Below the pieces are notes generated by a model. That model saw nothing but the letters and a program-made list of their open reading frames with translations. It searched no databases and was not told where the DNA came from. A DNA stretch of 64,000 nt from Ilex aquifolium (taxonomy: Eukaryota > Streptophyta > Magnoliopsida > Aquifoliales > Aquifoliaceae). Position 1 is the first letter of the stretch. Each line of letters opens with the position of its first letter. Where the stretch lies: positions 5,174,001-5,238,000 of the forward strand of contig OX637402.1 of NCBI GenBank assembly GCA_951799425.1, given 5' to 3'. Position numbers and translations under genes: made by a program. Below are positions 1,847 through 63,608 of this stretch, in pieces.

Positions 1847-4041
1847 TGTAACGCCCCAAATACCACCCTAGACGACATTACATACTAAAACCATATACAT
1901 CATGAGAGCACTAATATCATCCATACATAAATTACACTTCATTCATCATCCATAAAATATTTACATCATTATCCAAAAGAATATGTCATCTTTGGCCTTT
2001 ACATTTCAAAAATTAATCCAAGTTGCACAGCGGAATAAACAAAAGGAACTAGACTACACAATGTTCCAAAAGAATGTCCTAGTCTAGTACAAAAGGAAAA
2101 GAGGTCGCTCTAAGCGTCCACCTCGGGATCCACACTCCCGTCTAGTGGAGTCTCCCAAGTAGCGGGCTCCTCGACCCCTACGTCCTCCTCTTGTAGGAAA
2201 TCTGAAAAATGTTAGCAGCAGGGGATGAGCACGAAGCTCTGTAGCAAAATCTTCCCAAACTCAAACAAGGTTTAGAAAAACATATAAAACGGTTGGTCTC
2301 ATTTTCACAAATAGCATATATAACATTTGAAGTAAAACCAGGACATTTGAATAGATCTCAAGTTTAAGGAACAATAGTAATTGAATGAATAAGTGAAACC
2401 AGTATACAGTTAACAAACTATATCCAAATATAACCCATTCTACCATAAACCGTTTCCAACAAGTTCTCTCGGAATCCCATACTTCCGGAAACTCTTGTCG
2501 AAACCATTTCCGGTACAATGCACGATAACCCACAATGTATATCCGACACTACCCACGTTACTATTCCGTCATCATTAGTGCTAGGAAATGTTCGTATCCA
2601 CACGGCGTACAAAGACGTCTACCCACACTATGTGGTAGGAAAAGTTCATACCCGCGTGGCATACAAAGCCGTCTACCCACTACATGACACCCGGTCAATA
2701 GTAAACCATGTTAGCATCGTACAACTACGCAAGAGATACTATACCGACAAACACCTCACCTTCCCAACAATTACACAATTCCCCCAATTTACACGCCATA
2801 TCCAAGAAAAATCCCCAATTCTCATAAGTTGTGGTACAAGAGTAATACAATAAAATGTACAAGAGATCATCATAAATAGCATTTTGTTGTTCACTATGAA
2901 ACACTAACGTTTTGAAATCGAGAACATAGGAGGAATCAAAAGAAAAACCCCTTTCTCTTGAAACCTAGGGTTTTAAGATGAGAAAAAGGATTTAATGGTT
3001 ATTCCACCATGTATTTGTTTAAAACTTGATAATCATTGCAAGGATGTCAAGAATCAAGTAAATACTAGCAAGTATATACGGTTTTGAAACAAAAGAGTAC
3101 ATATAATTTAACCCTAACATCAATGTAAGAGAATAGGAAGAAATCCCCTACCTCAACCAAATATCTCTAGCAACCCAAGCTTTAATGACTCCCCTTTTCC
3201 CTTTTTTCTTGTTCCCTTGCTACTTTCTCTTTCGGTTCTAAGAGGTTTGAGTGAAAGTGAAGTGAAATTATAGTAGAGGGAATGGGTGGAGAAGTGGGTT
3301 CTTGAAAAACTAGGGTTTGATTTTGTTCAAGGTGTAAATCTCTCTTGATTTTATGTTTTTCTCTTCCTCTCTAATGGTTTCTAGGGTTTCAATTGGTGTA
3401 ATGAGGCTTAGAGAGGTGTAAGGATGTATTTATAGTCAAAGAAATGGAGAAAGAACCAAAGCCGGGTCGGGCTAGGCTTTGCCGGGCGTACCGGTACGGT
3501 TGAGCTACTGGAGTTCGGCGTACCGGTACGGTTCGACTGCCAGATTTTTGCTCCAACTTCCAGTGCAGTTTTGACCCATTTAGAGGTCGAATTGGAAAAT
3601 TTTCATGAGATACACTTTTGTAGCCCTAGATTTTCATTCCACTGTAAAAATTTCAGACCAATTGGACTTAAGGATAAAAAGTTATGGCCGAAATACTAAG
3701 CAGTGTCCAAAATCTTAAATTCCCAAATTTTCTCTACAATGTGTTTTAACTCCAAAATACTTCCTAACTTCGAATACACCTCATATTACCTCTCCCAAGG
3801 TTTCTCGACCTTCTGGAATCAATGGAAACCTTATTTTGACCTAAAAACCTTTAGAAACTTGTCTATTCATCCTTTCCAAGTTTAAACATCTTCGACACGT
3901 AACTTTCCAAATCAAATTGTCTCCATAGCATTTATTCCTACGGTTTATTCTTATGTCACTACATATATCTACATCTTTACTAATATTATTTACTATATAT
4001 ATATCTCTATAAATATATAAAAGAAAATTCAGGGTGTTACA
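1847..4041 (-). mobile_element. Solo LTR A1
   Basis: This 2195-bp unit starts TGTAACGCCCC and ends GGTGTTACA, a 6-bp terminal inverted repeat, and is flanked by a perfect 5-bp TSD GAAAT (1842-1846 and 4042-4046). No internal region, primer site or polypurine tract is present, so it is a solo LTR. It aligns with A2, A3, A4 and A5. A TATAAATA box on the minus strand (plus-strand 3427-3434) sets the transcription sense as minus. The lineage cannot be told from the LTR alone. Confidence 0.9.
3485..3532. repeat. Palindrome cluster of LTR A1 (CGTACCGGTACG)
   Basis: Two perfect 12-bp palindromes CGTACCGGTACG occur at 3487-3498 and 3519-3530. They lie about 55 bp upstream (in minus-strand sense) of the TATA box at 3427-3434. 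The flanking sequence (GCTCCAACTTCCAGTG and beyond) is conserved in the other A copies, while the palindromes are not. Confidence 0.85.
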
Positions 4042-4046
4042 GAAAT

Positions 4047-4743
4047 GAAAGGGGGTGAGTTATTCAAGACAAAATGAATGAAAGAGCGATAAAATGTACA
4101 AAGTTACAGTATAATTGGATAGCCCTTTCGAGCTCTTATTATCCGTCATTTCATTAACCACTACCCCTGACCACGTTACAACCTTATGAAAATCCTTTTT
4201 GATTTGAGGATGTATTTGCAGTGATTTTGTTTCACCTAATGCATGGGGGATGTTGATAATATTGCTTAATTTAGTGTTGATATTCGTTCTTGAGATTATG
4301 CCAAAGTCCAGTTTTATTCTAAAACCGTTTATTGATTTTTACATGTGAAATATTTTGCTTTGATTTACAATATTCATATCACATGTGGATTTTGAGCGAC
4401 AAGTCACTAAAATCTGAGTATGTTATTTGCTGAGTGATTTCTAGTAAAGAATTGACATCGAGGCTAATTTTGATAAGCTGCGAGAAGAGCTGTGTTATTC
4501 TCTCGATTTTTTTAATAGTAAAACATTACACACACACACACACATAATTTTATTTGTGATAAGTGTATAATATCTTGTCGTAACCATTGAAGTTTGTAGG
4601 TACTTTCATTGAAAACCTTCTAGGATGACCTAGGGGTTTAAAGGCTTTTTGCATGAGCTATATGCAATCGTGAAACCTACGAAAATGGTTGTATGCTTTA
4701 TTGGTTTGAATTACTAGGGACTAGTAATGTTTGGTTGGGGGTG
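4047..4743 (+). mobile_element. 3' internal remnant of Athila-like element D, ending in a polypurine tract
   Basis: Non-coding. The last 140 bp match, in inverse orientation, the region next to the 3' LTR of element F (58749-58920), including a shared CTAGGGGTTTAAAGGC string. The stretch ends in a G-rich polypurine tract (GGTTGGGGGTG, 4733-4743) directly before the TG of LTR D2. An AC dinucleotide run lies at 4528-4544. Together this marks the 3' end of the internal region of an Athila-type element. Its gag-pol is not in the window. Confidence 0.7.
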
Positions 4744-4944
4744 TGATTAACCCTAAAATGATGCATTGTTTATAAAAGTTTAAGGGTTAATTGTGTTAAT
4801 TAAATAGTTAAAGGACTAAAATTTAAATGATATTTGTACTAATGGGTGAAAACATGTTATTTTGAAACTATAGGGTCTAAAAAGTGAAATTGGACAGCTA
4901 AGGGGCTAAGGTGCAAAAGGAGAACATTGAAGCCACACTGCTAG

Positions 4945-5075
4945 CATCCGAATGGCCTTACACCATCCGAATGGTGGGGCCCAGGATCAGCACAAGCCCC
5001 AAAGGAGAAAACTGTCGAATTCCAGTGGAAGACCACCATCCGGACGGTGGAAGCTAGCGTTCGGACGGTGGTGAA
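4945..5075. repeat. Palindrome cluster of LTR D2 (CATCCGAATGG / CCGGACGGTGG)
   Basis: Four related units occur: two CATCCGAATGG copies (around 4948 and 4968), then CCATCCGGACGGTGG (around 5036) and GTTCGGACGGTGG (around 5059). They are imperfect inverted repeats centred on TCCGGA or TCGGA. They end about 95 bp upstream of the TATA box at 5166. Confidence 0.7.
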
Positions 5076-6780: not shown

Positions 6781-6805
6781 TAGCCTTTTCCGATTTTATC
6801 CCTAA

Positions 6806-9174: not shown

Positions 9175-11793
9175 TTTAAAATCGGAGAAATTCAAACTTT
9201 ATTAAAAAGGGCAAAACGGTAATTAGCCGTTACAGTATGGGTTAAAAACTTGAATTTTTCTAGAACTCAGATGAAAAAATGGACCTCACCGTTGGATTTG
9301 TATTACGAAATCTAGCTAGCCAGTCAATTTTCGTCGAATTTCAAGATAGTCAGAATTTTTTGTATTTTACAATGTGATCGTAAGTCGCGCGACTAAAATA
9401 AATACAATAAAAATTTTATTCGCGAAACCTGGGAAAAAATTTAAAATTAGTTCACTAAAAATACACTAAACTTAATGCGGGATGAAATTTAATTAATTCG
9501 GGATAAAATTGGATAGATTAAAGAGGGATGTGTGGCGCATTGTGAGCCATGCAATTGGAGAGTATAAAGGGGGGGGGGGAATTAGATTTTCCAACATTGT
9601 TTGGCCTTGCATTTCTGGAAAAGAGAGAGAGATAGAGAGAGAGAGAGAAAAAAGAGAGAAACTCAAAGTTCTCTTCACCTTCTTCCTCCGATCCAACCGT
9701 TGGATTGCTTCGGGCCAAGAATTAAAGTTGCTCTACACGACGAGAGCTACACATCTATACCGAAGATCGTGGTTTTATTTAAAATCTCAAAGATGATATT
9801 TTTGGGATCAAGCTTGAGAGGCTTGATTTTGGGCTTTTGGAGCTTCTAATACACGAATATACGCTACAAGAGGTAGGGTTCCTTTCCTAACTAGGTTTAT
9901 TTCCAACCTAGGGTTGAAATATGAAATAGGTAGGGTGTTAGAGATGAATTCTCATGTATAACACATACCTAGGGTTGTTAGAATATGGAAAATGGGTATA
10001 AGAATATGTTAAAACCAATTCTTGTATGATTTGGGTTTGATGAAATTGATTGGTTTGGATTTCATGAAGAATATATTGCTTGGGTATGCTATGTTTTTAC
10101 ATAATTTTGCCTATTAATTGTTTGATGAAATGCTTATGAATTCAAGTATGTTAGTTAGATTGGTACCACATGTAATATGCTTGGGATTGTTTGTGGAAAA
10201 TGGATATGTTTATTATATGCCATATGATGTGATGAGTATAAGATAGAAATTACAATTGTATAATTTGATTGTATAATGATATGAAATATAATTGTGTATT
10301 ACATTTGCTTATGCATGGATAAAATTGCATTCATGGGCATTCGACACGAGTGTGTGTGTGTGCATGTTTTTGATCAAACACCATCTTTGGTAGATTGGTA
10401 TGTGGACTCGAAAAAGTTGTACTTAGGTTCGACTGAGTCTCATGGGTTGCATTGAAAATAAGTGTCGGGGTTAGCAAGAAGGGCTAGATTCTCCCTCGGG
10501 TGTAAGACCCAATAATTTTGAATACGCACTCCCATTGTTATTGAGCCCATAAAGTGTGTCGGTGTACGCGGAACCGTTGGTGGAAGTCCATAGATGCCGT
10601 GTCGGTTAGGTGACTGTTGGTGGAAGTCCATAAATACCTACCCCAAGAAAGACACAAGATTTTACAAAATGGTTATTGGATGTCTAACATCAATGGCGGG
10701 GGCTTGGAATCCCCGGATGCATATGCATGACATGACATGTGTTATGGGAGCCTGTGGAGGGCTCGAGTTTGCATTTCATGTGTGAGTTCCACCTCATGAC
10801 ATGACTTAAAATTGTAGCATTCATTTATGACATGTATGTATTGAAATGGATGTTTGATGTGATGAATTGCATATGACATTTTATATGCATCTGGGTTGGG
10901 GAGTAATCTCCTTAGGAGATACCCTATTGAGAGTGATTCACCCTTTATGGGGATATATTTCAGGTGTTAGACAAGCTTTGACGGACGACCCTCACTTGGG
11001 CTCGTGTTGATGACAGAGCCGGATTGTAGCTCTTAAATTATATTTTGTAATCCCATGTATAATTTTGGTTTGGCCTTGTATAAATCATGTACAAAACTTG
11101 TATTTTAACAAAGACATGTAATGGGACACTCTTAGACATTGTTATTTTGTTAAACAAATGAATGAAATAGGTGTTGAATGAGTTTATTGGTCGAAATTTG
11201 AATTTTGGGGAGTTTGGGGGAAATTTGGGCTCTAGGTACCGGTACCTCATAGGTACCTGGCATCCAGAGAGCTCAGGTAGTAATACCTAGGCTCACAGGT
11301 ACTGATACCTCGCTAACAGTGGACTCAAGTACTGGTACCTAGGCTCACAGGTACCGATACCACGCGGTCAATGACCCAAGTACAAGTTCCACGTCTTATA
11401 GGTACTGGTACCTAACAACCAGAGGACTTGAGTACCGGTACCTCTTATCATAGGTACCGGTACATCCTCCCAAAAACTAAAATTTTAAATATAATCTTGC
11501 TGAGCCTTCACATTTTGAGCTCTTTTATTTGGATGATGTAATTGGTTGAATATTAAGCCTATACTTTGGGATGTGGACCTTGGAATGATCGTATGATTAT
11601 TGTACGCACATGTCACGTATTGGGTAAAGTTCCTGTACAAAGGAGACTCTGCCTAAATTCCATTTTTGGTTATGATCCTGGTGAATGGGGTGTAACGATG
11701 TAGTATCGGGTTATACTATACTCATGAGTATTTTTGCGGGTTGATGGGTGATCAACGGGTTGAGAAAAGACCCCCAAATTTTGGGGCGTCACA
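9175..11793 (+). mobile_element. Solo LTR B2
   Basis: This 2619-bp unit lies between perfect TSDs TAATT (9170-9174 and 11794-11798). Its right end, GGGGCGTCACA, matches the family consensus. The left end reads TTTAAAATCGG where relatives have TGTAAAACCSGG, so the TG has mutated. A TATAAAGG box at 9563-9569, about 388 nt from the start, is conserved in spacing in B1, B3 and B4 and sets the orientation. A GA-rich leader follows at 9620-9660. There are no internal sequences. Confidence 0.85.
11231..11472. repeat. Palindrome cluster of LTR B2 (AGGTACCGGTACCT)
   Basis: A perfect 14-bp palindrome AGGTACCGGTACCT lies at 11234-11247. Six or more full or degenerate repeats of GGTACYGGTACC follow, each separated by 20-40 bp of less conserved sequence. 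The cluster is about 320 bp from the LTR 3' end, downstream of the TATA box, unlike the other families. Confidence 0.85.
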
Positions 11794-25342: not shown

Positions 25343-25347
25343 AAATT

Positions 25348-27214: not shown

Positions 27215-30189
27215 TGTGACACCCCAAATCCGGGGGTCCTTTATTAACCGTTGACAACCCGTCAACCCGCGGAAACATCCGTGGATATCGCTTAACCCGA
27301 TACCACATCAATAACATCCCTAAACCGAGGTTATAACCCACAATGAAAATTCGGTTCAACATTCATTTGATCCAACCCCAGTCCAACACACCATGATTCA
27401 TACCCCATTAGGGTCCAATTTGATCATTTAAAGGAAGGAAATTCAAAGCCCAAAGCTTGGCAAAACAATTTTAAAATTTTAGAATTTTTGGACTGACTAC
27501 CGGTAGCTGTTTATCGACTACCGGTAGCTGGAACCTTCTGGACCACGACTACCTGTTAACTACCGGTAGCTGGAACCCTCTGGACCAACGACTACCTGTT
27601 GACTACCGGTAGATGTACCCTTCTGGTCCACGACTACCTGTTGACTACCGGTAGTCAAAGGCAGATTTTGTCCATTTCAATAATTTTTCATTTCCAACTC
27701 ATTTCAAACCTTTCCAAGGTCACCCAAACATATATATTCATGTTTTCTACATTATACAAAGTCCATGGAAGTCCATTTCATACAATTCCAGATATGTACA
27801 CATCCAAATGGAATTTATATAAAAGTTATACAATTTAACCATAAAAGCCACATTCTGGCTTCTTCAACTTTGAGGCCCCAAATGAGAACCTCCCTCCCGC
27901 GAATGATGCGCACTTGAAATGTTTCCCTTATAGGGTGAGCCAACGCCCAGTAGAGTGTTTCCTACGGAGGCTACTCCTCAACCTATATGCATATGAAATG
28001 TTCACATGCACAACCACAATTCCCATAACCATTCCATCAAGTAATATGATTAAATGATGTAATGCTAGAATGTCATGCCATGAATGAGGTGAGACCCACC
28101 CATGTGCACCCAACCCGAGTCCACTCCGACTCCCTTTACATGCCAATGCCATGTATGTTAAACCCGGGCTACCCAAGCCCCATAAAATGAGATGAGACTC
28201 ATGTACTCAACCCGAGTCCGCCCCGGCTCAACATGAAATGAGATGTGACTTATTTATGCACTCACCCCAAGCCCTTCCCAGCTCGACAACACAATGCAAA
28301 TGTCAATGTGTAATGACCCGTCTTCGACGGAAATACATCCAATGATCACTTTGAATAAAAATCATGCGTTTTATAAATAAGATCATTATTGGATGGTACT
28401 CATTGAATGAGTATTTTATAAATCAAAATCTTGTGTCTTCCTGGGCAACGGATTTTGGAATCGCACCGCCGGCTCCGTGGCCCTAACTACACTTTTCTGG
28501 AATTTCACCACCGGAAAGTGTATAAACCAAGTGGCCGGGTTTTGCACCCGAGGGAGAGTCTAGCCCTACTTGCTATACCCGACACAAGTTTTTCCATGCA
28601 TGTAATCGTGCGACACAGTCGGATATTCAATCCAACTTTCCCGAGCCCACCCTTCAACCACCAAGAATGATGTTTGAATGAACCATGCACCCACACTCAT
28701 GAATGACTCCCATGAATGTGACACAACCTTATGCCCAATATGCTATGACCGCCAATGAGCAACTCTTTTCATGTCCACATGCATTTAATACCACATAGAT
28801 TGTGGTACAATACCCATGCACAAACACACCCACACCCATGCTAACATCCCATGAATGTGATGCCACACCATGTCCCATATGCAATGTATGCAACTTGGAC
28901 TACTCCTTGCGTCAATTACCATGCCGGGTATCGACGTCAACCATGCACTCACCCATGAAATAAATGATTTCATGTCAATGCAATGTAATGCACCATTGCA
29001 TAACCATGCCATGTGCCATATGATATGAATGTCATATGGACAATTAATTCATAGTTTCACATGTTCACATTCATGGCAATTATATCAATAACATATAACT
29101 ACCAAATTCCTTAACCATGTCAATACATCAAGGAGCATATATTGGCATCTTAGTGCATAATTTCACATAGCTCTACTCATCTAAACATGTTATCACAATT
29201 TCGTTGGAATAACAACCAATTCCACAACCAAGGCATTTAAACAAACACCTTTAAGGCAAACAACATGTTATCACATAAGTTGTTCAATTTCTCTCAAGAA
29301 ATTCCTATAGGCAATTTCTATTAAACAATTTAGGATAAAATTAGTTTACCCCAATTGCATCAATAGGTAAATGTACTTTCTTAACAACCTATCCATTCTT
29401 TTACCAATTAAATCAAAATAGGCAAGGGTCATTGGCCTCTAACACCCTACCCATTTCCAATACACATTCTAGGTTCGGGATAAACCAAAGTAGGAAACCC
29501 CTACCTCTTGTAGCGTGAGGAACGACGTAGGAAGCTCCCAAGACCCGAAAACCAACTCGAAGCTTGATTTTCGTACACTTCCATCTTTTCACCTTCGGCG
29601 AAAACCATTGTTTTTGGTACCCACGCGTAGCCCTTGTCGCGTAGATCACTTCTCCCGTCTAGCTCGACGGAGTCCGAGCGACGGAGGCCGGAGAAATCGC
29701 CGGAGAAAGGGTTAAGAAACCATTTTCTCTCTCTTTGAACGGCTGAACCAAGGGAGCAAATGTGATATTTTCTTGCAAAATATCAAAAATAAACCCCTAT
29801 TTATAGTCTCGGAATGTGCGGCCCTAATCGCGCCACACGTCTCCACTTATTCGGGTTCCGTTTAAATCCCGAAACGATTAAATTTTGCTCCGGTTTAAGT
29901 TCAAAATATTTTCTATGAACTTTAATTTTATTATTTTCACATTTCTCACATTTTGCCCAAAATTTCGTTTTTGGGGTCACCCGAGACCCGACCGTCTCGT
30001 AAAACGCGCAAAATCCGACTATCTCGGAATTCGACGAAATTTTACATGTCCACTAGATTTCGCGAGACGAATCCAAAGGTGAAGTCCGTTTCATCATCCG
30101 AGTTCTAGAAAAATTCAGTTTTACAGCCGGAGTGGCAATTTACCATTTTGCCCTTGTTCATCAAAGTTTAAATTTTTCGGGGTTTCACA
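27215..30189 (-). mobile_element. Solo LTR B3
   Basis: 2975 bp from TGTGACACCCC to GGGGTTTCACA, between perfect TSDs ATGTG (27210-27214 and 30190-30194) inside the 3' LTR of element E. The TATAAATA box on the minus strand (plus-strand 29798-29805) is about 385 nt from the LTR start, as in B2 and B4. It is a solo LTR with no coding region. Confidence 0.93.
27495..27658. repeat. Palindrome cluster of LTR B3 (CTACCGGTAG)
   Basis: Five perfect CTACCGGTAG palindromes lie at 27497-27506, 27518-27527, 27560-27569, 27603-27612 and 27645-27654. The last extends to 14 bp (GACTACCGGTAGTC). They alternate with degenerate CGACTACCTGTT units, giving a roughly 40-bp period in the later part of the cluster. 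Confidence 0.92.
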
Positions 30190-32752: not shown

Positions 32753-32869
32753 TTGAAGGATTTGGGGAAGAAGATGAATAGTGCTTAGGGTTAGGATTTT
32801 TGAGAGAAAGAGAGATTTGGATGATAGAGATGGAAGAGTATGGATTGTAGTGATGAGAAATGGGTAGGG

Positions 32870-33065
32870 AGAGGGTTTAAATAGAAATGAATCGGTAGGT
32901 GATGAGTTTATGAAGAGTTATGAAGGAAGATTTACGTTTTTATATTGAAAAGTCATGACTTTTGAATTTTGCTGAGGTGAACCGGTATACCAGTTTAACT
33001 TTCCGGTATTCTGGTTGGGCTTTCCAGTATACTGGATAAGAAATCTGGTATTCCAAATGGGCTAT
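32870..33065 (-). promoter_or_regulatory. Putative internal promoter of the E aORF with palindromes
   Basis: On the minus strand a palindrome cluster comes first: CCAGTATACTGG, a perfect 12-mer at 33024-33035, and CCGGTATACCAG at 32982-32993, which is identical to 40736-40747 in the LTR. A TATTTAAA box follows (plus-strand 32876-32883), and the aORF ATG lies about 125 bp further on. The arrangement of palindromes, about 100 bp, TATA and pyrimidine-rich leader copies that of the LTR promoters. That it is a second promoter is an inference. Confidence 0.55.
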
Positions 33066-34414: not shown

Positions 34415-36599
34415 TGTAACGCCCCAAAATCTACCCTGGAAGGCATTACTATCTATAAACCATTCAACCATGAGAGCAACTAAAAATAACTATTAAATAA
34501 TAAACCATTCATCCATCTGTCAAAGAATAAATACTAAAACCAACAAAACATTGAAACTTCTCCATTTTACAATCCAAAATTAAAGAATATCTAGCAACGG
34601 AATAATAAAACTAATTGAAACATTGTTTAACAAAAATCTCTCCAAATACAATAATCAACACTAAAATGAAACATCTCTAAGCCTCCACTTTAGGATCCTC
34701 ATACTGACCCTCTCCAGCCTCGAGATCAACTTGCTCATCTAAATCGACATCCTCCTCATTACCAAAATCTGTAATGTGTTGTAGGGGTGAGCAAAAGTCC
34801 ATAGGAAATTCCTCTTAAATCCCAACAAGGTTTAAAACAATAAAAAACGGCAAGTCTCTTTTGGAAAATAGCATATATAGATTTTGAGAATAAAACCATG
34901 ACAGTTGTAATGATATCAAGTGTACGGAATACAGTAAATCAATGACCGGAATAAACTTGCAAGAAATTAAAGCAATTAATAAATAACTCAGTAACATCAT
35001 TCCATATTCTCATGTATGTTGGTTCATCTCCATTGTCATGTATGTTGGTTGTTTTTCAGGAATCTACACAACGATTCTACCTCGTTCACCCACCACAAAC
35101 CAAACAATCTCAATCATTCCCCGCAGGACCACATCACAAACCACTTTAGGAAGGGCGTATACCGTCTCCCATGGCATAGACGAATTCTTCCCATGAAAGG
35201 TATACCATCCCTTAGCCTCGAACTTACGTGAACAATAGTGGTTGCTCTCACAAAAAAATAATTCATTACAAGTGTTAGGCAACCATCTCACCCCCACTAG
35301 GATAGACTAGCCTCTAACACTCTACGACAGCTCTCAAAGGTAATTCAAGTCTGTCACAACAAAGTATACAAGAGATAAAACCACAACTTTCTCAACAACC
35401 ACAATCTTAACCAATCACAATTTTCATTAACAATTCAAGTATCACAATTTCACAATTCTCAATATACTATAGTAATAAGGAATTAAAATATGCAAGAGAT
35501 AATCTCAAGAAAACATTCACAATTTTGATATCAAAACTCTAGGGTTTAGCCAAAAATCATAATTTATTGGAACAAGAACAAGTATTAGATGAAAACATGA
35601 TTTAATAAAGAATAGGACTTTAGAAATCAAGAATCCATGTATTTTTCACAATAGAATGTGTATTTTGGAAAAACTAGGTTTTAGAAATTCAAGAACAAGT
35701 ATTCCTTGAACCCAAACATATATTTTGTTCAAGACTATGATCCAAAGATAAAGAAACCAAGAACTCATATATATCTATCATATAATTATCAAGAAGATTG
35801 AAAGCATACATAATTATACCCTAAGTCTCAATGAAATTACTCAAGAAGAATCCCCTACCTTAATTCCGTAGTTTTGTGTGAAAACCTAGCGTGTTTGATC
35901 TGTTCCAACGTGAAAATCCCCCTTATTCTCGTGTTTATCCTCTTTTTTATTGCTCTCCAAGACTTTCTAGGGTTAGAATTGATGAAATAGGGCAAGGGAA
36001 GACATCATTGGGTATTTATAGTATGAGAAAACAGTCCAAGCGGCGCAAATCTAATACTCAGTATCGCGACCTCACGTTCGAACTATCTACCTGAAGCTCG
36101 AACGTCACTTTGACATTCGAACGTTGTTTGCTCCCAGTAATTTTGCTTTTTCATCAGATTTCTGTCTGACACAAAAGTACTAGGATGAACTATTGTTCAA
36201 ACGGATCCATTCACGTTTGAACGGACTCCCATTTTTAGCTGAACTTCCAATGAAGTTTTGGCCTATTTAGAGGTCGATTTGAAAAAATTTCGTGAAATAA
36301 TCTTTTGTACCCCTCGAAGTTTAGTGTCTATTGTAAAAATTTCATGTAAAATGGACATCATAGTAAAAAGTTATGGTCTAAATACTAAGGCAGTGTCAAA
36401 TTCATTTCTACCCGAATTTTATCTAAATTGTGCGTTAACTCCGGAATACATCCTAACTTCTACTACATACCCTATTACCTCGCCTAACATTTTTATTTCT
36501 ACTCTTATAATCTATGTAGTTCATGCTTACATCATTACATAAATGAGCATTTCAAAATAATTACGTTATTATATAAAGATAAAAATGTGGGGGTTTACA
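34415..36599 (-). mobile_element. Solo LTR A2
   Basis: 2185 bp from TGTAACGCCCC to GGGGTTTACA, with perfect TSDs CTATC (34410-34414 and 36600-36604), inserted in the RT of element E. TATAAATA on the minus strand lies at plus-strand 36013-36020. It aligns with A1, A3, A4 and A5 but carries a different palindrome motif. Confidence 0.92.
36071..36231. repeat. Palindrome cluster of LTR A2 (GTTCGAAC)
   Basis: A perfect GTTCGAAC lies at 36076-36083, followed by GCTCGAACGTC, ATTCGAACGTT, GTTCAAACGG and CGTTTGAACGG variants. The cluster starts about 50 bp upstream of the TATA box in minus-strand sense, at the position where A1, A3, A4 and A5 carry CCGGT- or CCGGA-type palindromes. Confidence 0.75.
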
Positions 36600-41570: not shown

Positions 41571-41704
41571 GACCTACTGGTAGAAAAACAATGTTCTACC
41601 GGTAGGAAAACTCACTAGAAAACTTCTATTGGTAGAAGATTGGCATTCTACCGGTAGAAGAGCTCACTGGAAAACTTCTACTGGTAGAAGATTGACGTTC
41701 TACC
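41571..41704. repeat. Palindrome cluster of LTR B4, left part (TTCTACCGGTAGAA)
   Basis: CTACCGGTAG lies at 41596-41605 and the perfect 14-mer TTCTACCGGTAGAA at 41646-41659, with CTACTGGTAG variants between. The cluster runs into the A3 insertion and resumes at 44136. Confidence 0.9.
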
Positions 41705-44135
41705 TGTAACGCCCCAAATACCACCCTGGACAGCATTACATTCTAAAACCATTCATAGCATGAGAGCAACTAACTATATATCCATCAAATAAGAAACATC
41801 ATAGATTTAACAAAATTTGGGCAGAGTCTCCTTTGTACGGGAAGTTCTACCCAAAAACACAACCTGTGCAATTATATTAACTTGACCACACAGGGTCCAT
41901 TTAACCATCCAATAACAATAAAATTCCATTTACCATCTATACTATCCATAATGTTATCCCAAAAGAATAGGCCAAGTATGGCAATTACATTCCCAAAAGA
42001 ATTACATGAATATATCACAGCGGAATTCCAAAAGAATCTAGACTTTACATTGTTCAGAAATAAATCTCCTAGTCTAGAACAAAAATAAGCTACATCTCTA
42101 GATGTCCCACTCAGGATCTAGGTACCCCTCCAATGAGGCGTCCCCAAGGCCCGGCTCATTAGCGCCAAGCTCCTCCTCGATAGCATAATCTGAAAAATGT
42201 TAATTGTAGGAGATGAGCACGAAGCTCTGTAGCAAAATCTTCCCAAACTCAAACAAGGTTTAGAAAATTATATTAAAACAGTTCGGTCTCATTTTCACAA
42301 ATAGCATATATGAATTTTGAAGTAAAAACAGGACATTTTAAATAGATCTCAGGTTTACGTATTCACAATAATTTAAATGGACAGTAAAACCAAGTCATCA
42401 TTAACCACCATCCCCGTTTCCAACAAGTTCTTGTGGAGTCCCATACCTCCACAAGCTCTTGTTGGAAACCATTCCGTAACAATAATAATAATCTCATAAT
42501 CTCATGTATATTGATTCATCCCCGTACCATGTATGTTGATTGCTTCTCATGAATCTACCCAACGATTATACCTAGTCCACCTATTTACATCATAATCACA
42601 AGCACTATAGGAAAGGGCGTCTACCATCCCAATGGCAGTGACGAGTCCCTTCCTAGGAAAAGTATACTATCCCTTGTTCGAACTCCAGTGAACGATAGTG
42701 GTTTCATTACCAAATGACAACCCACTACAAGTGCTAGGAAACCATCTCACCCCCACTGGGGTAGACTAACCTCTAACACTCTAAGGCATCTCTCGAAGGC
42801 AATCCAAGTCCCTCACAACAACCATACAATTGAGGAAACCAACATATTCTCAATTCATCAACATTTCAAGGAATTACCAAATTCCACAATTTCTAATATA
42901 ATGTTTCATAATATGATGGAAGAAAATGAGCAAGAGATCATCATAAGTAACATTTTGGTGTACAATATCAAACACTAAAGTTTTGAAAGCAATACCAAGG
43001 GAAAATAGAGGGAAAAGTCCATTTCTCTTTAAAACCAAGGTTTGAAGATGAAAAGGAGAAATTTAATAGTTACCCAACCATCACAATGTTCAAAACATGG
43101 CATTTATTTCAAGAGGAACAAGAATCATGTATTTAATAGCAAGTACATATGATTTTAAACCAAAAGAATACATATAATGTAGCCCTAGCCTCAATGTAAG
43201 AACATAGGAAGAAATCCCCTACCTCTTAGTTGTAGCTTCAATCTAAGACTCAAGCTTCAAAATCTTCCTATTCTCCTTCCTTTTTCCTCTTAATTTCGTC
43301 CTCCTAGGGTTTCAAGAGATTTGGGTGAGAGTGATTGAAGAATAGAAGAAAAGAAATGGGTGGGGAAGTGAGATTTTTGAGAAATCTAGGGTTTGATCTT
43401 CGCAAATGATGTAAATCTCTCTCTTGGATGTGTTTTTCTCTTCCTCTCTTCTCCTCTCAAGCTATCTAGGGTTTGGAGTGGTGTAATTAAGGCTAAGGAG
43501 GTGACAAAATGTATTTATAGTGGAGAAAAAATCGAGGGTTCGCGAACTAAAAAAATTCGGATTTTTACAGTGGCTACCGGTAGCTCGGACACACTGGACC
43601 ATTGGCTACCGGTAGCTGATTTTGGCTACCAGTAGTCACTACCCAGATTTTCTACTTCCACTTCCAGTGCATTTTTGACCCATTTAGAGGTCGAATTGGA
43701 AAATTTTCATGAGATACACTTTTGTAGCCCTAGATGTCTACTATCTACTGTCAAAATTTCAGGTCATTTGAAATTAAGAATAAAAAGTTATGATAGAAAT
43801 AGTAGAAAGTGTCCAAAATCCTTTATACCCAAATTTTCTCTAAAATGTGTTTTAACTCCAAAATACTTCCTAACTTCTAATACACCCCATATTACCTCTC
43901 CCATGGTTTTTCGACCTTCCGGACTCAATGGAAACCTTATTTTGACCTAAAAACCTTTAGAAACTTGTCTATTCACCCTTTCCAAGTTTAAACATCTTCG
44001 AAGCTTAACTTCCCAATCAATTCGCATCTCTAGTTTTTATTCCTATCGTCACTACTCATATCCATGTTTTTACAACAATTATTTACTATATATATCTATA
44101 TACATATCTATAAAAGAAAAATACGGGGTGTTACA
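41705..44135 (-). mobile_element. Solo LTR A3
   Basis: 2431 bp, TGTAACGCCCC to GGGGTGTTACA, with perfect TSDs CTACC (41700-41704 and 44136-44140). The TSD is exactly half of the palindrome CTACCGGTAG of the host LTR B4. TATAAATA on the minus strand lies at plus-strand 43512-43519. Confidence 0.93.
43571..43640. repeat. Palindrome cluster of LTR A3 (GCTACCGGTAGC)
   Basis: Perfect 12-mers GCTACCGGTAGC lie at 43573-43584 and 43605-43616, then a degenerate GGCTACCAGTAGTC at 43624. It starts about 55 bp upstream of the TATA box in minus-strand sense. Confidence 0.9.
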
Positions 44136-44205
44136 CTACCGGTAGAAGAGCTCACTAGAAAACTTCTACCGGTAGGTAATCAACGATCTACCGGTAGATC
44201 ACCCC
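44136..44205. repeat. Palindrome cluster of LTR B4, right part (GATCTACCGGTAGATC)
   Basis: This is the continuation of the cluster split by A3: CTACCGGTAG at 44166-44175 and the perfect 16-mer GATCTACCGGTAGATC at 44185-44200. Confidence 0.9.
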
Positions 44206-46587: not shown

Positions 46588-48262
46588 TGATTAGCACAAA
46601 AGTTTGCATATTTTATGTACCATTACATCCCTTCTTCACTTTCTTTTGTAGTTAAAATGAGCGGAATATCACCGTTCGATGCATTTAATGGAGTTTTGAT
46701 ATGTTTACAAGAAAAGGGGTTCAAATGGTGCCTTTTAGGCTTTATCATGATGCTTGAGTTGAGTGGAGATGAGGTGGAGGCCGGATGAGAGCTCAGGTGG
46801 TGAAGGAACCAAGAAATCAGTAAAACAAGGAAAAACCTACCGGTAGGCCATACCGGTAGGTTTTGGCTACTGTCCTGCACCTACCGCCAAACCTACCGAT
46901 AGGTTTTGCCCAATGGAGTGAAACCTACCGGTAGTTTTCCATCGACCTACCGGTAGGTTTTACTGAAATCGCCAGATTCTGCATGTCAAGCTCTGTAACC
47001 TTGGGGGTCCCACCAAGCACACTCCCACTTGTCCCTGACACTCCTTACACACTGGACATCCCTTCCTCAACCTACATTGGAATTTTGGAGCTTTGGACAT
47101 TAATGAGGAGAGAGGAGAGAGAAGATGCTGGGTGTGCAGGCATAGCCTGTACCAACCCATCCCTTTCAGCCCCTATGGATGGAGATCACATCACACAGCT
47201 AGGGGACACTCCATGGACATTTTTGGCAAGATCCACCACCATTATGCATTATTAGATAGTATTACATTGAATATAGAGAGAGAGAGAGAGAGTCCAAGGA
47301 AGAAGATGAATAGTGCTAGAGAGAGAAGTTAATATTTTTGCATTTTCCTTCCATACATTATCTTGTAATCCTTGGTAAGAATCTTCTAAGCTTGGTCCTT
47401 AGTCTTTAATGTCATTTATTGCATGTTGCTTTCAAGTTTAATATTTCATTCAAGCTTTCACCATTAATGCATTCAAGTTCTTAATTTCTTAGTTTTAAAA
47501 TGGGTATTAAATGCATTCTCTTTTAGCTTATGTTTCTTGCATTAACTTAGCAAAAATCTTCATTTCTCTACAATGTCTTTCCATTTCATTATTGTCTTTG
47601 CATTAAGTATGAGTAGCAAAGATTTTAAGTTGGTTAATCCAAGGGAGACCTCTTATTGGGTATGCCATTTCAACTCATCTTCTTTCCTCCTCTCATTGTA
47701 CGATGGTTCGGTTTGACTGGGTTGGGTGTGGACATGGTTGTGAGTCTTTGATATCCCGTAGACTTGTCACGGGCTATGCTTGGATCCTCACATCCATCTC
47801 GTCCTTAACTTCCCACGAATCAATCGAGCATCTAGGCACCATTGGAGGAAGGTTTCGAGTTGACTTGGCATTCCCGTTGGAGTGAACCTTTTGGATTAGC
47901 CAACACTTTTCCCATTTAAATTCCATTAAGATACAATCACTCACCAAACTTCCAACAACAAAATATTTTTAATCTTTCCCTTTTTTTACCAAAATCACCT
48001 TCAACACGATTCACATCCTTCCCTGAGGAGACGACCTTGGAATACTTTCCAATTAAAACATGATATTCAAAAGACTCCCTACGCTTGGGGAGCATTTTTG
48101 TTCAACCCACACATTTTTCACTTCATTCATCCACCATTCCGTTGCCATTTCTTTTGACATCATTCCAAGGGAGAGTGACAATCCCTTCACACATACGACA
48201 TACACAATTTGAGGGTGATGTCTGGACCTTAGGGAATATACTACAACGGAAACCAACAAGCA
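46588..48262 (+). mobile_element. Solo LTR of family F
   Basis: 1675 bp, TGATTAGCAC to CCAACAAGCA, with perfect TSDs ATATG (46583-46587 and 48263-48267). It is homologous, in inverse orientation, to the LTRs of element F (61783-63608), but diverged. It shares the GGTCCCACC, CTATGGATGG, TACGATGGTTCGG and CTCCAACGG-type blocks. There is no primer site or polypurine tract at either side, so it is a solo LTR. Confidence 0.85.
46831..46962. repeat. Palindrome cluster of the F solo LTR (CCTACCGGTAGG)
   Basis: CCTACCGGTAGG occurs at 46836-46847 and 46946-46957, with CATACCGGTAGG, CCTACCGATAGG and CCTACCGGTAGT variants between. It is at the position of the cluster in the LTRs of element F. Confidence 0.88.
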
Positions 48263-49982: not shown

Positions 49983-52529
49983 TGTAACGCCCCAAATACC
50001 CCCTTGGACGGCATTACATACTAACAACCATTTATACCATGAGAGCAACTAATCAAAATCCATAAATAACCGGGGGTCCTTAATTTAACCAAATTCGGGC
50101 AGAGTCTCCTTTGTTCGGGGAGCTCTACCCAAAACCCAACATGTGCAATTATACTACATCGACCACACCGGGTCCATTTATCCATAAAAGATTTGTAACA
50201 TTATCCCAAAAGATTTCTATTCACCGTATGTAATACCCACAATAACATTCCAAAAGAATAAGTCAAGCTATGGCCACAATATCAAAAGAATAAGCCCAAC
50301 AATGGCATTTACATTTCCCAAAGAAAACATTAACTATTATAGCGCAGCGGAAATTACAAAAGAGATCTAGACTATACAGTGTTTCAAAAGAATATTCTAG
50401 TCTAGAACAAAAGTAAACGACATCTCTAGATGTCCCACTCGGGATCCAAGTATCCCTCTAGTGAAGCCTCTCCATGGCCCGACTCGTTAGCACCGAGCTC
50501 ATCATCTGGCACAACATATGAAAAATGTTCAACTGTAGGGGGTGAGCACGAAGCTCTGTAGAAAAATTCTTTCAAACCCGAACAAGGTTTAGAAAACAGA
50601 TAAAAACCGGTCGGTATCATTTTGTAAATAGCATATATCAATTTTGAAGGAAAAACGGGACATTTTAAATAGATCTCAAGTTTAAGCCGTAACAATAATC
50701 AAGTGAAAGGTTAAGGTAAATTTCATAACAATATACCATTTCCAACTTTTAGCCATTTAGGAAAAACGCCTTCCGATGCATTGTCCCATACCAATGCACC
50801 GGCCAAGGCGGTCCAACCCATCATCCCATTTATATTGGTTCATCCCCGTACCATGTATGTTGATTGCTTCTCATGAATCTACCCAACGATTATACCTAGT
50901 CCACCAATCACAATCACAATCACAAACACTTTAGGAAAGGGCGTCTACCATCCCAATGGCAGTGACGAGTCCCTTCCCAGGAAAAGTATACCATCCCTTG
51001 TTCGAACTCCAGTGAACGATAGTGGTCGCATTATCAAATGACAACCCACCACAAGTGTTAGGAAACCATCTCACCCCCACTGGGGTAGACTAACCTCTAA
51101 CACTCTACGACATCTCTCGAAGGCAATCCAAATCCATCACAACAACCATACCAATGAGGAAACCAAAATATTCTCAATTCACCAACAATTCCAAATAACT
51201 ACAAAATCCACAATTTCTCATTTTACAAGCGTAACTCAAAATCCCCAAATTAAGCATGTGACATTTTCAATAACCAACCAAGAAAAATGCAAGAGATCAC
51301 AACAATATCATTTTATTACTCAACACAAAACACTATGATTTTGAAATCAAGAATAAAGGAAGAGTTCAAGAGGAAAACCCGTCACTCTTGAAAACTAGGG
51401 TTTTTCAAACAAAAGAGGGATTGCATGGGTATACAACCCTAACTTTGTGTAAAACATGTTAACAATTGCAAGAGAACCAAGAAACAATGAACCCATAGCA
51501 AATACATATGATTAGGAGTCAAAACATATATATATAATAACCCTAACATCAATGAACAAGAATGGAAGAAAACCCCTACCTTGGTATTCTTGAAAATCTA
51601 GGGTTTGATCTTGAATCACTCTTAAATCCTTTGTTTTTCCCTTTTGATCTTGTGTTTTCTCCTTCTTTATTCTTTTCTAAGACTCTCTCTAGGATTCCAA
51701 GAGGTGTGGGTAAGGGTGTAGTGAAAGTGTAGAAGAAGATAGTAGAAGAATGGTGTTCTTGAGGAATTTCGGTTTTGATCTCTATAAGGGGTAACTCTCT
51801 CAAGATCTTTGTGTTTTTCTCTCCTTTTCTCTTCTCTTAGGGCTCTAAGATGTTTGGGGTGAGAGTGGGATGGAAGAATGAGGCAAATGAGGGCTTGAGG
51901 TGGTGTTTTAAACCCAAAAATCCTGACTTTTTAACTGTTCGGCGAGTGTCAGAGAAAATCGTACCGGTACGGTACCGTACCGGTACTCCAAAGCTACTGG
52001 AGTCGGGCGTACCGGTACGGTATCGTACAGGTACGGTTTGATAGATTTTTGCTCCGACTTACAGGGAAGTTTTGACCCATTTAGAGATCAAATTGAAAAA
52101 TTTTCATGAGATACACTTTTGTAGCCCTAGATGTCTACTATCTACTGTTCAAATTTCAGATCAATTGGATATAAGGATAAAAATGTATGACCAAAATACT
52201 AGAAGGTGTCCCAACTCCTTTTTACCCAAATTCTCTCTAAGTGTGTTTTCACTCCGGAATACTTCCTAACTTCCAATACACCCCATATTACCTCTCCCAA
52301 TGTTTTTTGACCTTCCGGATTCAATGGAGAACTTATTTTGACCCAAAAATATTTAGAAACTTCCATAATCCCTCTTCTCAAGTTTACACACCTTCGAAAC
52401 TCAAACTTCCCAATCCATTTGTCTCCCTAGTATTTATTCCTACTATTACTACACATATCCACTTTTTTTTACAACAATTATTTACTATATAACTATATAC
52501 ATATATAAAAGAAGATGCGGGGTGTTACA
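49983..52529 (-). mobile_element. Solo LTR A4
   Basis: 2547 bp, TGTAACGCCCC to GGGGTGTTACA, with perfect TSDs AAAAT (49978-49982 and 52530-52534). It aligns with A1 and A3 over its length. The TATA position has decayed to GGTGTTTTAAACCC. Confidence 0.92.
51958..52038. repeat. Palindrome cluster of LTR A4 (CGTACCGGTACG)
   Basis: CGTACCGGTACG lies at 51960-51971, GTACCGGTAC at 51977-51986, CGTACCGGTACG at 52008-52019 and a one-mismatch copy at 52024-52036. It is the same motif as in A1, with one more unit. Confidence 0.9.
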
Positions 52530-52534
52530 AAAAT

Positions 52535-55353: not shown

Positions 55354-57999
55354 TGTAAGACCCCGTATTAAAAATTAAATAAGGATACTATTATCTTAAG
55401 AGTTCTCCTAAGATAAATAAAATGATGGTAGAAACTTAGAATCATTGTTGAAAGATTGATCATGAAGTTTGAGTACGCACGAATTGACTTCCGGGTCAAA
55501 CTTAGTTTTAAAGGTGTGTAAACTTAAGAAGGGTGATTAGGTAAGTTTCTAAATGTTTTTAGGTCAAAATAATGCCTCCATTGAATCCAAAAGGTTGAAA
55601 AACATTGGGAGAGGTAATATGGGGTGTATTAGAAGTTTTGAAATATTTTGGAGTTAAAACCTATTTTGGAGAGGATTTGGGTAGAAAGGAATTTGACACT
55701 ACCTTAGTATTTTAGCTATAAATCTTTACTCCTAACTCCGATTGCTCTGAATTTTGGAAATTATAAACTAGACTTCAAGGTCTACAAAAGTTTATTTCAC
55801 GAATATTTTCTGAATCGGCTTCTAAATAGGTTAAAATCGATCTGGAAGTTGAGGGTATACTGTCACCCGCGTCCGGACGGGAATAGACACGCGTCCGGAC
55901 GCGCTTGGCAGAAACTTGGACGCAAAAACACGCGTCCGGAAGCACCATGCCGGGGGCTTCACATCCCAGACCTTTTGTGGGTGTTTTCTCCACTTTTCAC
56001 CCAATTTCATCAAATCTAACTCTTGAGAGACTTAGAGAGGAAGGAAAGAAGGGGGAAAACAAGAAATTCAAGGGTTGATTCAAGTGGGAAGGATCAAATC
56101 TTCTAGTTCTTCACACAAAAATTAAGGAGCAAAGTAGGGGTTTTCTTCCATTCTTTTACATTGAGGATAGGTTTATTTATATGTATCTCTTCACTCTAAA
56201 TGTTATATGTATGCTATCCAATCCTTAATTCTTGCTATTCTTGCAATTAATGCCATGTGGAAAATATTGTGATTGTTGGGTAACCCTTAAATCTCCTTAC
56301 TTGCTACCAAACCCTAGTCTTCAAGGGAAATGTGTTTTTCTCTTGACTTCTCCTTTGTTATTGATTTCAATACATGATTGTTCCTTTGTTTTGAATTCTA
56401 AGCTGGATATTCAATACTTGATATTCTTTATTCTTGGTTCCAAGACTTGAGTGTTCTTTTGGTCTTGATTTCTAAGCTTCATAATTATTTGTTCTTGATT
56501 TCACACCTTGATAGTCGTTTGTTATTTATTTCCATACATGATTGTTCCGTTAAATCTTAATTTCTCATTTGTCCATGATTTTCAAGCTTTTTGCGCCTTT
56601 ATTCTTTATACTCCAAGCTTAATATTCATTTGTAATGATTCCAAAGTTTGATTACTCATAGGTTCTTGATTTCAAAACTTTAGTGTTTCATATTGAACAA
56701 CAAAATGGTATTTATGATGATCTCTTGTACATTTTCTTATATTGCTCTTTGTACAACTAGAGAAAATTGGGAGTTTATGGAATTTTTTGTTAATGGAGGA
56801 AATTGTGGATATCGTATTTCTTGTTTGGTTGTTTGGAGGAACATGAGTGAGAGGTTCCTTGTAAGGATGCTCATCCCTTCTCAAGAGGTTCCCGGTAAGG
56901 ATGCTTGAGAATCAAAGATGATCTAAAGGGGGGTGGAGGTTACCACAAAGTATGCCACCTACCGAAAGAATTGTTGGGAATTGGGGACTTGTGTGATTGT
57001 TGGTTAGGTGAGATAATTGTTGGTATTTTATCTCTTGCGTGGTTGTACGATACGAACATGGATTACTATTGACCGGGTATCATGTAGTGGGTAGACGTCT
57101 TTGTATGCCATACATGTATGAACTTTTCCTACCACATGGAGTGGGTAGACGTCTTTGTACGCCGTGTGGGTACGAACTTTTCCTATCACTAATGATCACG
57201 GATTAGTAACGTGGGTTGTGTCAGATATACAGTGTGGGTTATCGTGCATTGTACCAGAAATGGTTTCGACAAGAGTTTTCGGAAGTATGGGATTCCGCGA
57301 GAACTTGTTGGAAATGGTTTATGGTAGAATGGATTATCTATTGTATATTGGTTATTGTTCACTCTACCATAGACGGTTTCTACAAGAGTCTTGGGAAGTA
57401 TGGGATTCTGCGAGAACCTGTGGAAACAGTGTATGGTGGATTGGATTATATTTGGATATGGTTTGTTAACTGTATAGTGATCCCACTTATTCATTCAATT
57501 ATTGTTGTTCCTTAAACTTGAGATCTATTTAAATGTCCTGGTTTTACTTCAAAAGTTATATATGATATTTGTGAAATGAGACCGACTTGTTTTACCTGTT
57601 TTCTAAACCTTGTTTGAGTTTGGGAGGATTTTCCTACAGAGCTTAGTGCTCACCCCCTACAAACCAACACATTTTTCAGGTGATGCTGTAAAAGATGATC
57701 GGTCAGAAGACGGGTAGGGGGATCCGGAGGGGGATATCTCGACGGTCCTTCTTTGTATTAGATTGAAGGGTTATTTTGAAATCATGTAAAATATAATCTT
57801 TTGTTATTCCGCTGCTAAGTTACGTTTAATGCTTTTGGGATGTAATTGCCATGATTTGGCTTATTCTTTTGGGATAATGCTATGGATATGAAATATGATG
57901 AATGAAATTTCCTTATTGATGAAATTTATTTAGTCGCTCTCATGTTGTGAATGGTCTTAGATAGTAATGCCGTCCAGGGTGGATTTTTGGGGCGTTACA
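55354..57999 (+). mobile_element. Solo LTR A5
   Basis: 2646 bp, TGTAAGACCCC to GGGGCGTTACA, inverse to A1-A4, with perfect TSDs ATTGC (55349-55353 and 58000-58004) in the 3' LTR of element F. The family-A blocks are recognisable throughout. No clear TATA box remains. Confidence 0.92.
55866..55945. repeat. Palindrome cluster of LTR A5 (CGCGTCCGGACGCG)
   Basis: CGTCCGGACG lies at 55870-55879, the perfect 14-mer CGCGTCCGGACGCG at 55890-55903 and ACGCGTCCGGA at about 55930-55940. It is at the family-A cluster position but with a TCCGGA core instead of ACCGGT or TTCGAA. Confidence 0.9.
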
Positions 58000-58205: not shown

Positions 58206-58285
58206 TGGGTACAACCTACAGGTAGAACGATGAAACCTACTGGTAGGTTTTACTCCAGTAGCCAAAACCTACCGGTAGGTCTTTC
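58206..58285. repeat. Palindrome cluster of the F 3' LTR (ACCTACCGGTAGGT)
   Basis: The perfect 14-mer ACCTACCGGTAGGT lies at 58267-58280, preceded by ACCTACAGGTAG and AAACCTACTGGTAGGTTT variants. It is collinear with 63071-63138 in the other LTR. Confidence 0.88.
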
Positions 58286-58748: not shown

Positions 58749-58762
58749 CACCCCCCCAACTT
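58749..58762 (-). other. Polypurine tract of element F
   Basis: The minus strand reads a G7-8 tract (AAGTTGGGGGGGTG) just before the 3' LTR. It is almost the same as that of the young Athila element at 18077-18090. Confidence 0.85.
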
Positions 58763-61638: not shown

Positions 61639-61760
61639 AACACAAAATACAAACTAAAATCAACTATTTACAAATTAGACGACATACCTTGGCCCGTGAT
61701 GAAAATCACGAGACTTACCTATGCCGCCCAAAATCACCTTTTGAACTCGACGCTTAACCT
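61639..61760 (-). mobile_element. Leader of element F
   Basis: About 120 bp between the primer site and the mini-gag start codon. No separate feature is seen. Confidence 0.6.
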
Positions 61761-61778
61761 TCCCCGGCAACGGCGCCA
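61761..61778 (-). other. tRNA-Asp primer-binding site of element F
   Basis: The minus strand reads TGGCGCCGTTGCCGGGGA, identical to the site of the young Athila element, four bases inside the 5' LTR. It places element F in or near the Athila lineage. Confidence 0.93.
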
Positions 61779-61782
61779 AAAA

Positions 61783-63608
61783 TGCTTGATTGTTCCGTTG
61801 TAGTATATTCTCTAATCTCCGCACATCACCCTCAAATGTGTATATGGCCTATGTGTGAAGGGGAGTGTCACTCTCCCTCGGAATTATGTCAAAAGAAATG
61901 GCAACAGAATGATGGATGAATGAAATGTACAAAATGTGTGTATGAACAAAAGTGCTCCACAAGCACAGAGAGACTTTCGAATGTCGTGTTTTACTTGAAA
62001 AAGTATTCCAAGGTCGTCTCCTCAAGGAAGGAAGGTGAGTCGTGTTTTTGATGAAAATGAAATGGGAAAAGTGTTGGCTAATCCAAAAGGTTCACTCCAA
62101 TGGGAATGCCAAGTCAACTCGAAACCTTCCTCCAATGGTGCATAGATGAATGATTGATTCGTGGGAAGGAAGAGATGAGATGGAAGTGAGGATCCAAGCA
62201 TAACTCATGACAAGGCTACGGGATATCATAGACTCACAATCGTGTCCACACACAACCCAGTAAACCGAACCATCGTACACCGAGGGGAGGAAAGAAGATG
62301 AGTTGAAATGGCATACCCAAGAGGAGGTCTCCCTTGGATTAGCCAACTTAAAGACTAGCTACTCATGAAAGCAAGAAAGAAATGCATAATGTAAAGAGAC
62401 AAGTAAAGGAAATGGAAATGAAAATGAGATGAAAATGAAACTTAGAACTAGTATTAATGCTAGGAAATGGTAAACTACAAAGAGAAGTTCATTTAACACT
62501 AAAATGGAAAAGTTGCAGAGAAGAGAATTAAAACCCAGCAAAGATTATGGAAATGCAAGAACATTGAATTAAACTTGGTTACACTATAATTAAAAGAGTT
62601 TAAAATGCAAGAAATAAAGATTACAAGAGAACTACAACTTACTGCAATGAAATGGGAGAAGAAATGCAAAAACATAAATTTTATCTCTATAGCACTATTC
62701 ATCATCTTCCTCCTTGAACTATTCCTAAGCTTAGGTAGCCACCCCCTTCAAAGCTTGTGGAATGCTGAATATATGGTGAAGACCTCTGCAATTTCCTCCG
62801 TGGAGGGTCCCCCTAGGTGTGTGATAGGCCTCCCATCCATAGGAGGCTGAGTTGATGCATTGCACAGGCTAGGACAAGCCTAGCCTGCAACCCACCATGC
62901 CTCCATCTTTCTCTCTCCTCCTCTCCCATCCTTCACCTTCCTTTGCTGACTTTGGGGGTGTAGGAGGCATGTATATATGTAGAATATGTCAGGGGGCAAG
63001 TGGGAGAATCATAGGTGGGACCCTCAAGCAAGTGGAGCATGAGTTGCAGGCGTTCTGGTCATTCTGGGTATAACCTGCTGGTAGAACGATGAAACCTACC
63101 GGTAGGTTTTACTCCAGTAGCCAAAACCTACCAGTAGATCTTTCCGGAAGGTGCTAGCTCTGGACCATTTTTTGTAGAATTGTCATAAATTTTGATCCAA
63201 CCATCCGATTGTGCTAAAATTTTGAAACAATATAGAGGACATCCAGATCTACAACATTCATGTTTTTCACTTTTTCAGATTCGAAGTTGATCATGGTCAA
63301 AAAGGAGGAAAACCGAGGTACTGCTACCAAATGGTGCGGGTGCTGGTGCCTATGTTACCAAGCATCGATACGTCCCTGATTTCTTTCACTTTTAAGCCTC
63401 CAAATCCTCATGTAATGTGTCCACGTCTTCACCACTCCTCCATACTTAGTTGCAAGGTTACAAAATCCATGATTTACACTATAATTACCTGCAACATCGA
63501 AATTTCAACATTATTCATAATTTCGGCTAACTCTAAGTACTTAAATGCAAAGCTAAGTTAAAATGCATGTAATGAGGCCTTTAAATATGCAATATTATGT
63601 GCTCATCA
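61783..63608 (-). mobile_element. 5' LTR of Athila-like element F
   Basis: 1826 bp, TGCTTGATTG to GTGCTCATCA, directly followed by the TSD TGGTG. A weak TATATAT lies at plus-strand 62972-62978, about 100 bp downstream (minus sense) of the palindrome cluster. It is homologous to 46588-48262 in inverse orientation. Confidence 0.92.
63071..63138. repeat. Palindrome cluster of the F 5' LTR (18-mer)
   Basis: AAACCTACCGGTAGGTTT, a perfect 18-bp palindrome, lies at 63092-63109, with ACCTGCTGGTAG before it and ACCTACCAGTAG after it. Confidence 0.92.

Follow-up and report, generated by a model that had tools for sequence, protein, structure and literature searches.

The 64,000-nt stretch of Ilex aquifolium DNA analysed here (contig OX637402.1, positions 5,174,001 to 5,238,000; "the window") exhibits 26 copies of a CpG-centred palindromic word, TACCGGTA, gathered in clusters in the long terminal repeats (LTRs) of chromovirus-type and Athila-type Ty3/gypsy retrotransposons. 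The units are symmetric, occur in two flank versions that do not mix within a cluster, and are spaced in a recurrent manner around a CTGG site. From these sequence features, we lean towards regarding the clusters as arrays of sites, close to the promoters, on which a factor acting in trans and probably encoded by the host would bind as a homodimer.

An initial annotation of this DNA had already reported clusters of CpG-centred palindromes, and the five palindromes that it cited are all present at the positions given. The observation is real, and its framing needs correction. The window contains 16 perfect palindromes that are centred on CpG and 12 bp or longer, where Markov simulations (orders 1-3, 60 runs per order) predict 1.5-1.7 and never give more than 5. 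Of the 37 palindromes counted, the 21 that are not centred on CpG match chance (about 19-21 expected), so that the excess is confined to the CpG-centred class. For the 26 TACCGGTA copies the expectation is 0.28-0.83 (simulated maximum 3). The two arms covary, as had been claimed: the first flanking base is complementary in 25 of 26 units (permutation mean 14.2, maximum 22) and the second in 15 of 26 (mean 7.4, maximum 16), while the 11 of 26 complementary units at the third base (mean 8.3) are not significant. Two of the proposed examples fell away. The palindrome at 33024, CCAGTATACTGG, is TA-centred and lies inside a copia element, outside its LTR. CTCGAG was rejected as a clustered core, its 13 occurrences in the window scan being scattered and forming no cluster.

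All 26 TACCGGTA sites are in, or directly adjoining, segments of three LTR families (I, II and III). Six unrelated families had been proposed, a count that we rejected because self-BLAST of the window and the repeat ends give three groups carrying the word. The three exhibit no mutual alignments at E<=1e-10. Family I is represented by five copies (1847-4041, 34416-~36540, 41705-44135, 49983-52529 and 55354-57999) with termini TGTAACGCCCC...GGGGTGTTACA, four of them with 5-bp target duplications recognized by eye (GAAAT, CTACC, AAAAT and ATTGC). Family II, with an LTR of ~3 kb and termini TGTGACACCCC...GGGGTTTCACA, is found at 27215-30189, at 41245-41704 plus 44136-46252, and at ~9177-11790. 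Family III (from an approximate start at ~46780 to 48245; 54209-58749; 61783-63609) has an Athila-type LTR adjoining TGGCGCCGTTGCCGGGGA, a primer site that we take to be that of Athila. Ty3/gypsy gag-pol genes were found in genome relatives of families I and II. A family-II relative with a complete interior (L007/L008) encodes gag, protease, reverse transcriptase, RNase H, integrase and SH3_Tf2-1; a family-I relative (L014/L015), whose interior was covered in part and which has a matching TATAT target duplication, encodes RNase H, integrase and SH3_Tf2-1, with a Chromo match under the curated cut-off. From this domain content we call families I and II chromovirus-type, and from the coding strand of the same relatives we set their sense opposite to the TGTRACRCCCC orientation. 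Since families I and II have similar ends and are both chromovirus-type, the sharing of the word spans two Ty3/gypsy lineages.

Genome-wide, the symmetric word GTACCGGTAC occurs 51,910 times against 907 for its reversed control, and CTACCGGTAG 22,728 times against 353. Half-switched sites (GTACCGGTAG) number 504+434 = 938, below their reversed control (641+609 = 1,250), and are thus at or under background. Independence of the two halves would predict, from the word counts, ~32,000 mixed sites, and GTACCGGTAG is ~34-fold rarer. The longer words behave in the same way (14,692 against 14 for CGTACCGGTACG; 8,992 against 134 for CGTCCGGACG, the word of copy I-D), and tight pairs number 46,897 against 26. 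Among 136 distinct units from the window and genome loci, a set biased to CGTACCGGTACG, the first flank is symmetric in 120 (permutation mean 71.0, maximum 90) and the third in 59 (mean 41.0, P 0.003); at the first flank a G/C mixture occurs once. Both arms thus change together in the window and in the genome counts, as expected of homodimer arrays. Three readings had been offered initially, a host homodimeric factor, a silencing target and an element-coded anti-silencing protein; the genome-wide counts lend strong support to recognition of a symmetric, dimer-like kind. Among the matches listed for G000:C1, CGTCCGGACG forms regular arrays too, with gaps of 20, 23, 41-42 and 57-58.

The two flank versions, G..C and C..G (hereafter G and C), are nearly always kept apart. 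A single version is found in each of 39 clusters having at least two exact units. Twenty of them come from loci picked for CGTACCGGTACG and are hence biased to G; these include three pairs in which both LTRs belong to the same element. Two rows of the window represent a single split cluster. Among the 19 clusters not picked for CGTACCGGTACG (8 rows from the window and 11 from the listed pairs), 8 are G and 11 are C, and both versions occur in each of families I, II and III. Units of neither version also exist, mostly one CpG transition away; in the neighbourhood of exact units, 23 variants with a single mismatch were counted, of which 19 have a C-to-T or G-to-A change in CCGG, 12 of these at the central CpG. 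The trees of family I and family III each need at least one version change. Repeated changes within a family were considered and rejected, as these trees do not force more than one. In a search with the flank of the I-A cluster only, 40 of 3,646 candidates were scored and 30 loci (11 distinct, one being the window's own) were fetched; each of the 30 has 2-4 units, at spacings of 12 or 32, and a single unit is decayed. As these loci are relatives of I-A at 97-100% over the length of the query, a shared version is expected. The two LTRs of one element, L014 and L015, have 4 and 10 units, respectively; unit number therefore changes fast.

Units are separated mainly by 12, 13, 16, 22, 31, 32, 43 or 52 bp, and the 12/32 spacing is common to the three families. 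Of the distinct spacers of 31 bp, 8 of 10 (shuffle mean 1.6, maximum 7) have CTGG, on one strand, starting 11 nt past the core, as do 22 of 27 of those of 32 bp (mean 5.75, maximum 12); overall these are 30 of 37, the spacers being drawn from the three families and from the interior of an Athila element. The same offset is seen in 5 of 6 spacers of 43 bp, and an offset of 10 nt in 2 of 5 spacers of 30 bp. Among the first 50 genome pairs listed, CTGG is at +11 in 20 of 21 (16 of 17 distinct) and at no other offset. A period of 10.4-10.5 bp fits the C-version gaps (R 0.76, against a lenient null of uniform integers); the sample is 39 gaps from 11 rows, of which two make up a single cluster and two are closely related.

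The clusters had been placed ~45-125 bp upstream of the TATA box where one is visible, and part of the copies of families I and II have a candidate for it. Six of 15 family-I copies have TATAAATA 49-55 bp beyond the cluster in the sense direction, and 3 of 8 usable family-II copies have a TATA-like match 73-207 bp downstream; a fourth match, for copy II-b, falls within a nested family-I LTR (I-B). Additional clusters are found ~209 and ~415 nt upstream of the likely start codon of an env-like gene in two Athila elements (L030 and L033), and a cluster in a copia element of the window (V) lies ~200 nt upstream of an env-like start codon; the start codons in all three are our choice. The Athila products match PF20167 (L030, 1.5e-22; L033, two pieces, 4.5e-4 and 4.6e-10), while the pieces of the V open reading frame (ORF; 31875..32917, minus strand) show weak matches (2.6e-6 and 0.031), both under the curated cut-off. 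Within a set of eight sequences, a stretch of 69 residues aligns between one L033 piece and one V piece at 26% (E ~6e-7). Homologue searches with PF20167 proteins returned 2 and 1 homologues. The V palindromes (32948..33036, minus) are CCAGTATACTGG, the near-palindrome ACCGGTATACCAGTT and AAAAGTCATGACTTTT. From its ends and polypurine tract, we presume that V could be a Sirevirus.

The clusters of family I in the window are distributed over its five copies. I-A (3487..3530, minus) has two CGTACCGGTACG units with a gap of 32 and a CTGG spacer, and TATAAATA 54 bp downstream in sense (minus). I-E (36070..36200, minus) has partly decayed TTCGAA-core units, with TATAAATA 49 bp downstream in sense. 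The C-version cluster of I-B (43573..43640, minus) consists of GCTACCGGTAGC twice and one decayed unit (gaps 32 and 20), and the G-version cluster of I-C (51960..52019, minus) of three units (gaps 16 and 32). I-D (55872..55941) has three TCCGGA-core units, in plus sense because its LTR sits on the minus strand of the TGTAACG orientation. At G000:C1:28.180-28.262 Mb (L052-L067 and one further match), 17 family-I LTR matches follow each other in ~5.09-5.12 kb steps; here the LTR is carried within a tandem array.

Family II exhibits six G-version units, three of them exact, in II-c (11234..11463, plus) and five C-version units in II-a (27498..27658, minus; gaps 21, 42, 43 and 42). The cluster of II-b (41575..44200, minus; C version, TTCTACCGGTAGAA type) is split by the solo LTR I-B (41705-44135), nested within one of its palindromes with duplicated target CTACC, so that 41575-41690 and 44137-44197 are one cluster. 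Integration hot spots were rejected as the cause of the clusters: I-B did hit a palindrome, but the reported integration preference is slight (PMC6911290) and would not make palindromes. In family III, III-b (46836..46958, plus) has five C-version units of CCTACCGGTAGG type, and III-a has one exact unit in each LTR, accompanied by decayed ones in the 3' LTR (58228..58280, minus) and being AAACCTACCGGTAGGTTT in the 5' LTR (63060..63109, minus). A possible further family is represented at 4945..5075 (plus), where one almost perfect CCACCATCCGGACGGTGG is accompanied by decayed related units and TATAAATA follows ~95 bp downstream, at 5166; the repeat 1-344 / 5082-5425 suggests that this site may be in an LTR. 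Outside the window, a host gene for a malectin-like receptor kinase has a C-version cluster (L034 ~1510-1590, with L037 1004-3691) ~2.8 kb upstream.

We propose that the clusters would be composite cis-regulatory modules that immediately precede the promoters of retrotransposons. In this view, a homodimeric protein would occupy each palindrome of the TACCGGTA type and read ~5-6 bp per half. Adjacent sites and the CTGG site, which extends from 11 nt past one core to 8-9 nt before the next, would be kept at fixed geometry by a multi-protein complex on the DNA, driving LTR transcription and, in Athila and Sirevirus-like elements, probably also transcription towards the env-like gene. The G..C and C..G flanks would be sites of two factor versions, and tandem duplication of units, together with a failure of half-changed units to be bound, may explain why a cluster changes in its entirety. 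A word and grammar common to chromovirus-type and Athila elements point to a trans-acting protein, and the sharing of the module by elements of different coding capacity favours a protein of the host. A more specific form of the proposal, possible but rather doubtful, is that both lineages exploit one host regulatory code, in which a homodimeric factor, whose specificity for GTACCGGTAC excludes that for CTACCGGTAG and vice versa, works with a CTGG-binding partner at fixed phase, and that they switched whole clusters, leaving no surviving intermediates, as paralogues of the factor diverged.

Several results weigh against this proposal. No TATA-like match was found within 260 bp in any of the seven family-III LTR copies, and a canonical TATA is missing in 9 of 15 family-I and 5 of 8 usable family-II copies. 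The Athila element IV (16645-26778), very young with its identical LTRs (1432 bp, 100%) and its 1,790-aa ORF, exhibits no TACCGGTA cluster, and the module is therefore not needed by every family. CTGG at +11 is missing in 7 of the 37 spacers of 31/32 bp and in all nine spacers of 22 bp. The G-version gaps show no clear 10.5 bp phasing (R 0.38, P 0.03; 0.12 without within-cluster repeats). Genome copies share descent, so that the genome-wide word counts are counts of non-independent units. Finally, no known plant factor was found for the palindrome word.

The sharing between families could be a matter of descent, if the palindrome-CTGG module arose once and moved between LTR families by recombination or template switching, a scenario compatible with a regulatory role. 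The identical 12/32 spacing in the three families would fit, as would a III-a spacer having 16 of 18 bases equal, at the same offset, to a family-I spacer (L011; compared by eye). However, the flanking LTR sequences are unalignable at the threshold above, family-II spacers have little in common beyond CTGG, and exchange alone leaves the scarcity of half-switched sites unexplained; we consider it unlikely. The element-coded protein of the initial annotation, comparable to VANC of Arabidopsis VANDAL transposons, keeps some life from the clusters preceding PF20167-type ORFs in L030, L033 and V (the last under the cut-off). A PF20167 env-like protein would bind the palindromes of LTRs as well as those preceding its own ORF and lift silencing, chromovirus-type families using it in trans. 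According to PMC5735166, VANC targets are likewise short motifs in non-coding tandem repeats, of two types, that differ between related elements, and one motif is also present in the unrelated element AT9TSD1. In contrast, the string "palindrom" is absent from the text of that source, and VANC is transposon-encoded, while no such protein was identified among the searched frames of the chromovirus-type relatives. The family-II interior L007/L008 (~5 kb) gave gag-pol among the searched frames, short other frames being outside the search, and no evidence was found of PF20167 proteins binding DNA. We judge this explanation improbable.

Silencing offers another explanation, to which we give little credence: units in the transcribed 3' U3 would pair as hairpins feeding small RNAs, or nucleate host silencing. 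In maize Sireviruses, palindromic clusters are described as strongly structured by prediction and as having small RNAs in excess (Bousios et al. 2016, through its citation in PMC10760457), and the C-to-T and G-to-A variants in CCGG are those that methylation would yield. Yet hairpins between units should require neither palindromic single units nor a CTGG at fixed phase, a pure silencing target should not be kept by elements, and CpG decay in clusters is no higher than elsewhere (3/35 vs 18/154 in LTR pairs, 0/72 vs 6/207 in family-I cells, both small and partly biased samples). Least probable of all, in our opinion, is a purely mutational origin, in which slippage and templated correction of imperfect palindromes would build and homogenise arrays without selection. 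Such a process could account for the unequal unit numbers of L014 and L015, but it would not favour CpG-centred words, nor give an identical core in non-homologous LTRs, nor CTGG at +11.

Palindrome clusters as such are known from Sireviruses: Bousios et al. 2010 (PMC2829016) describe palindromes with CGG/CCG symmetry that are grouped ahead of TATA in the LTR and again ahead of the env-like gene, and take the latter position as support for an internal promoter. The motifs are there called Sirevirus-specific within a Ty1/copia comparison, their words going by element. The clusters described here are similar in being short CGG/CCG palindromes in LTR and pre-env positions with a word varying between elements; LTR units with this symmetry are present, and two Athila elements and copia V have extra units upstream of an env-like gene. 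They differ in that one core word, two flank versions and a CTGG spacer site are common to chromovirus-type and Athila LTRs, families I and II having Ty3/gypsy gag-pol and family III being Athila-type. Maize has comparable structured regions of palindromic motifs; according to Martin et al. 2023 (PMC10760457), these are concentrated in copia LTRs, with no obvious structural peak in Ty3/gypsy, whereas our clusters sit in Ty3/gypsy LTRs. Among the papers listed by our literature searches, no report was found of such a module (one word, a CTGG partner, two non-mixing versions) in Ty3/gypsy LTRs. What appears new is the word and grammar shared by two Ty3/gypsy lineages of one host.

If this holds true, palindromic promoter arrays, called Sirevirus-specific, would be a more general solution with a grammar that can be read, and several retrotransposon lineages of the same host would have adopted it. 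The scarce half-switched sites among ~75,000 would constitute a natural mutational experiment on dimer specificity. With the palindrome word as bait, the protein responsible for waking or silencing these elements could be sought directly, which would make the question of what drives plant LTR promoters a testable one.

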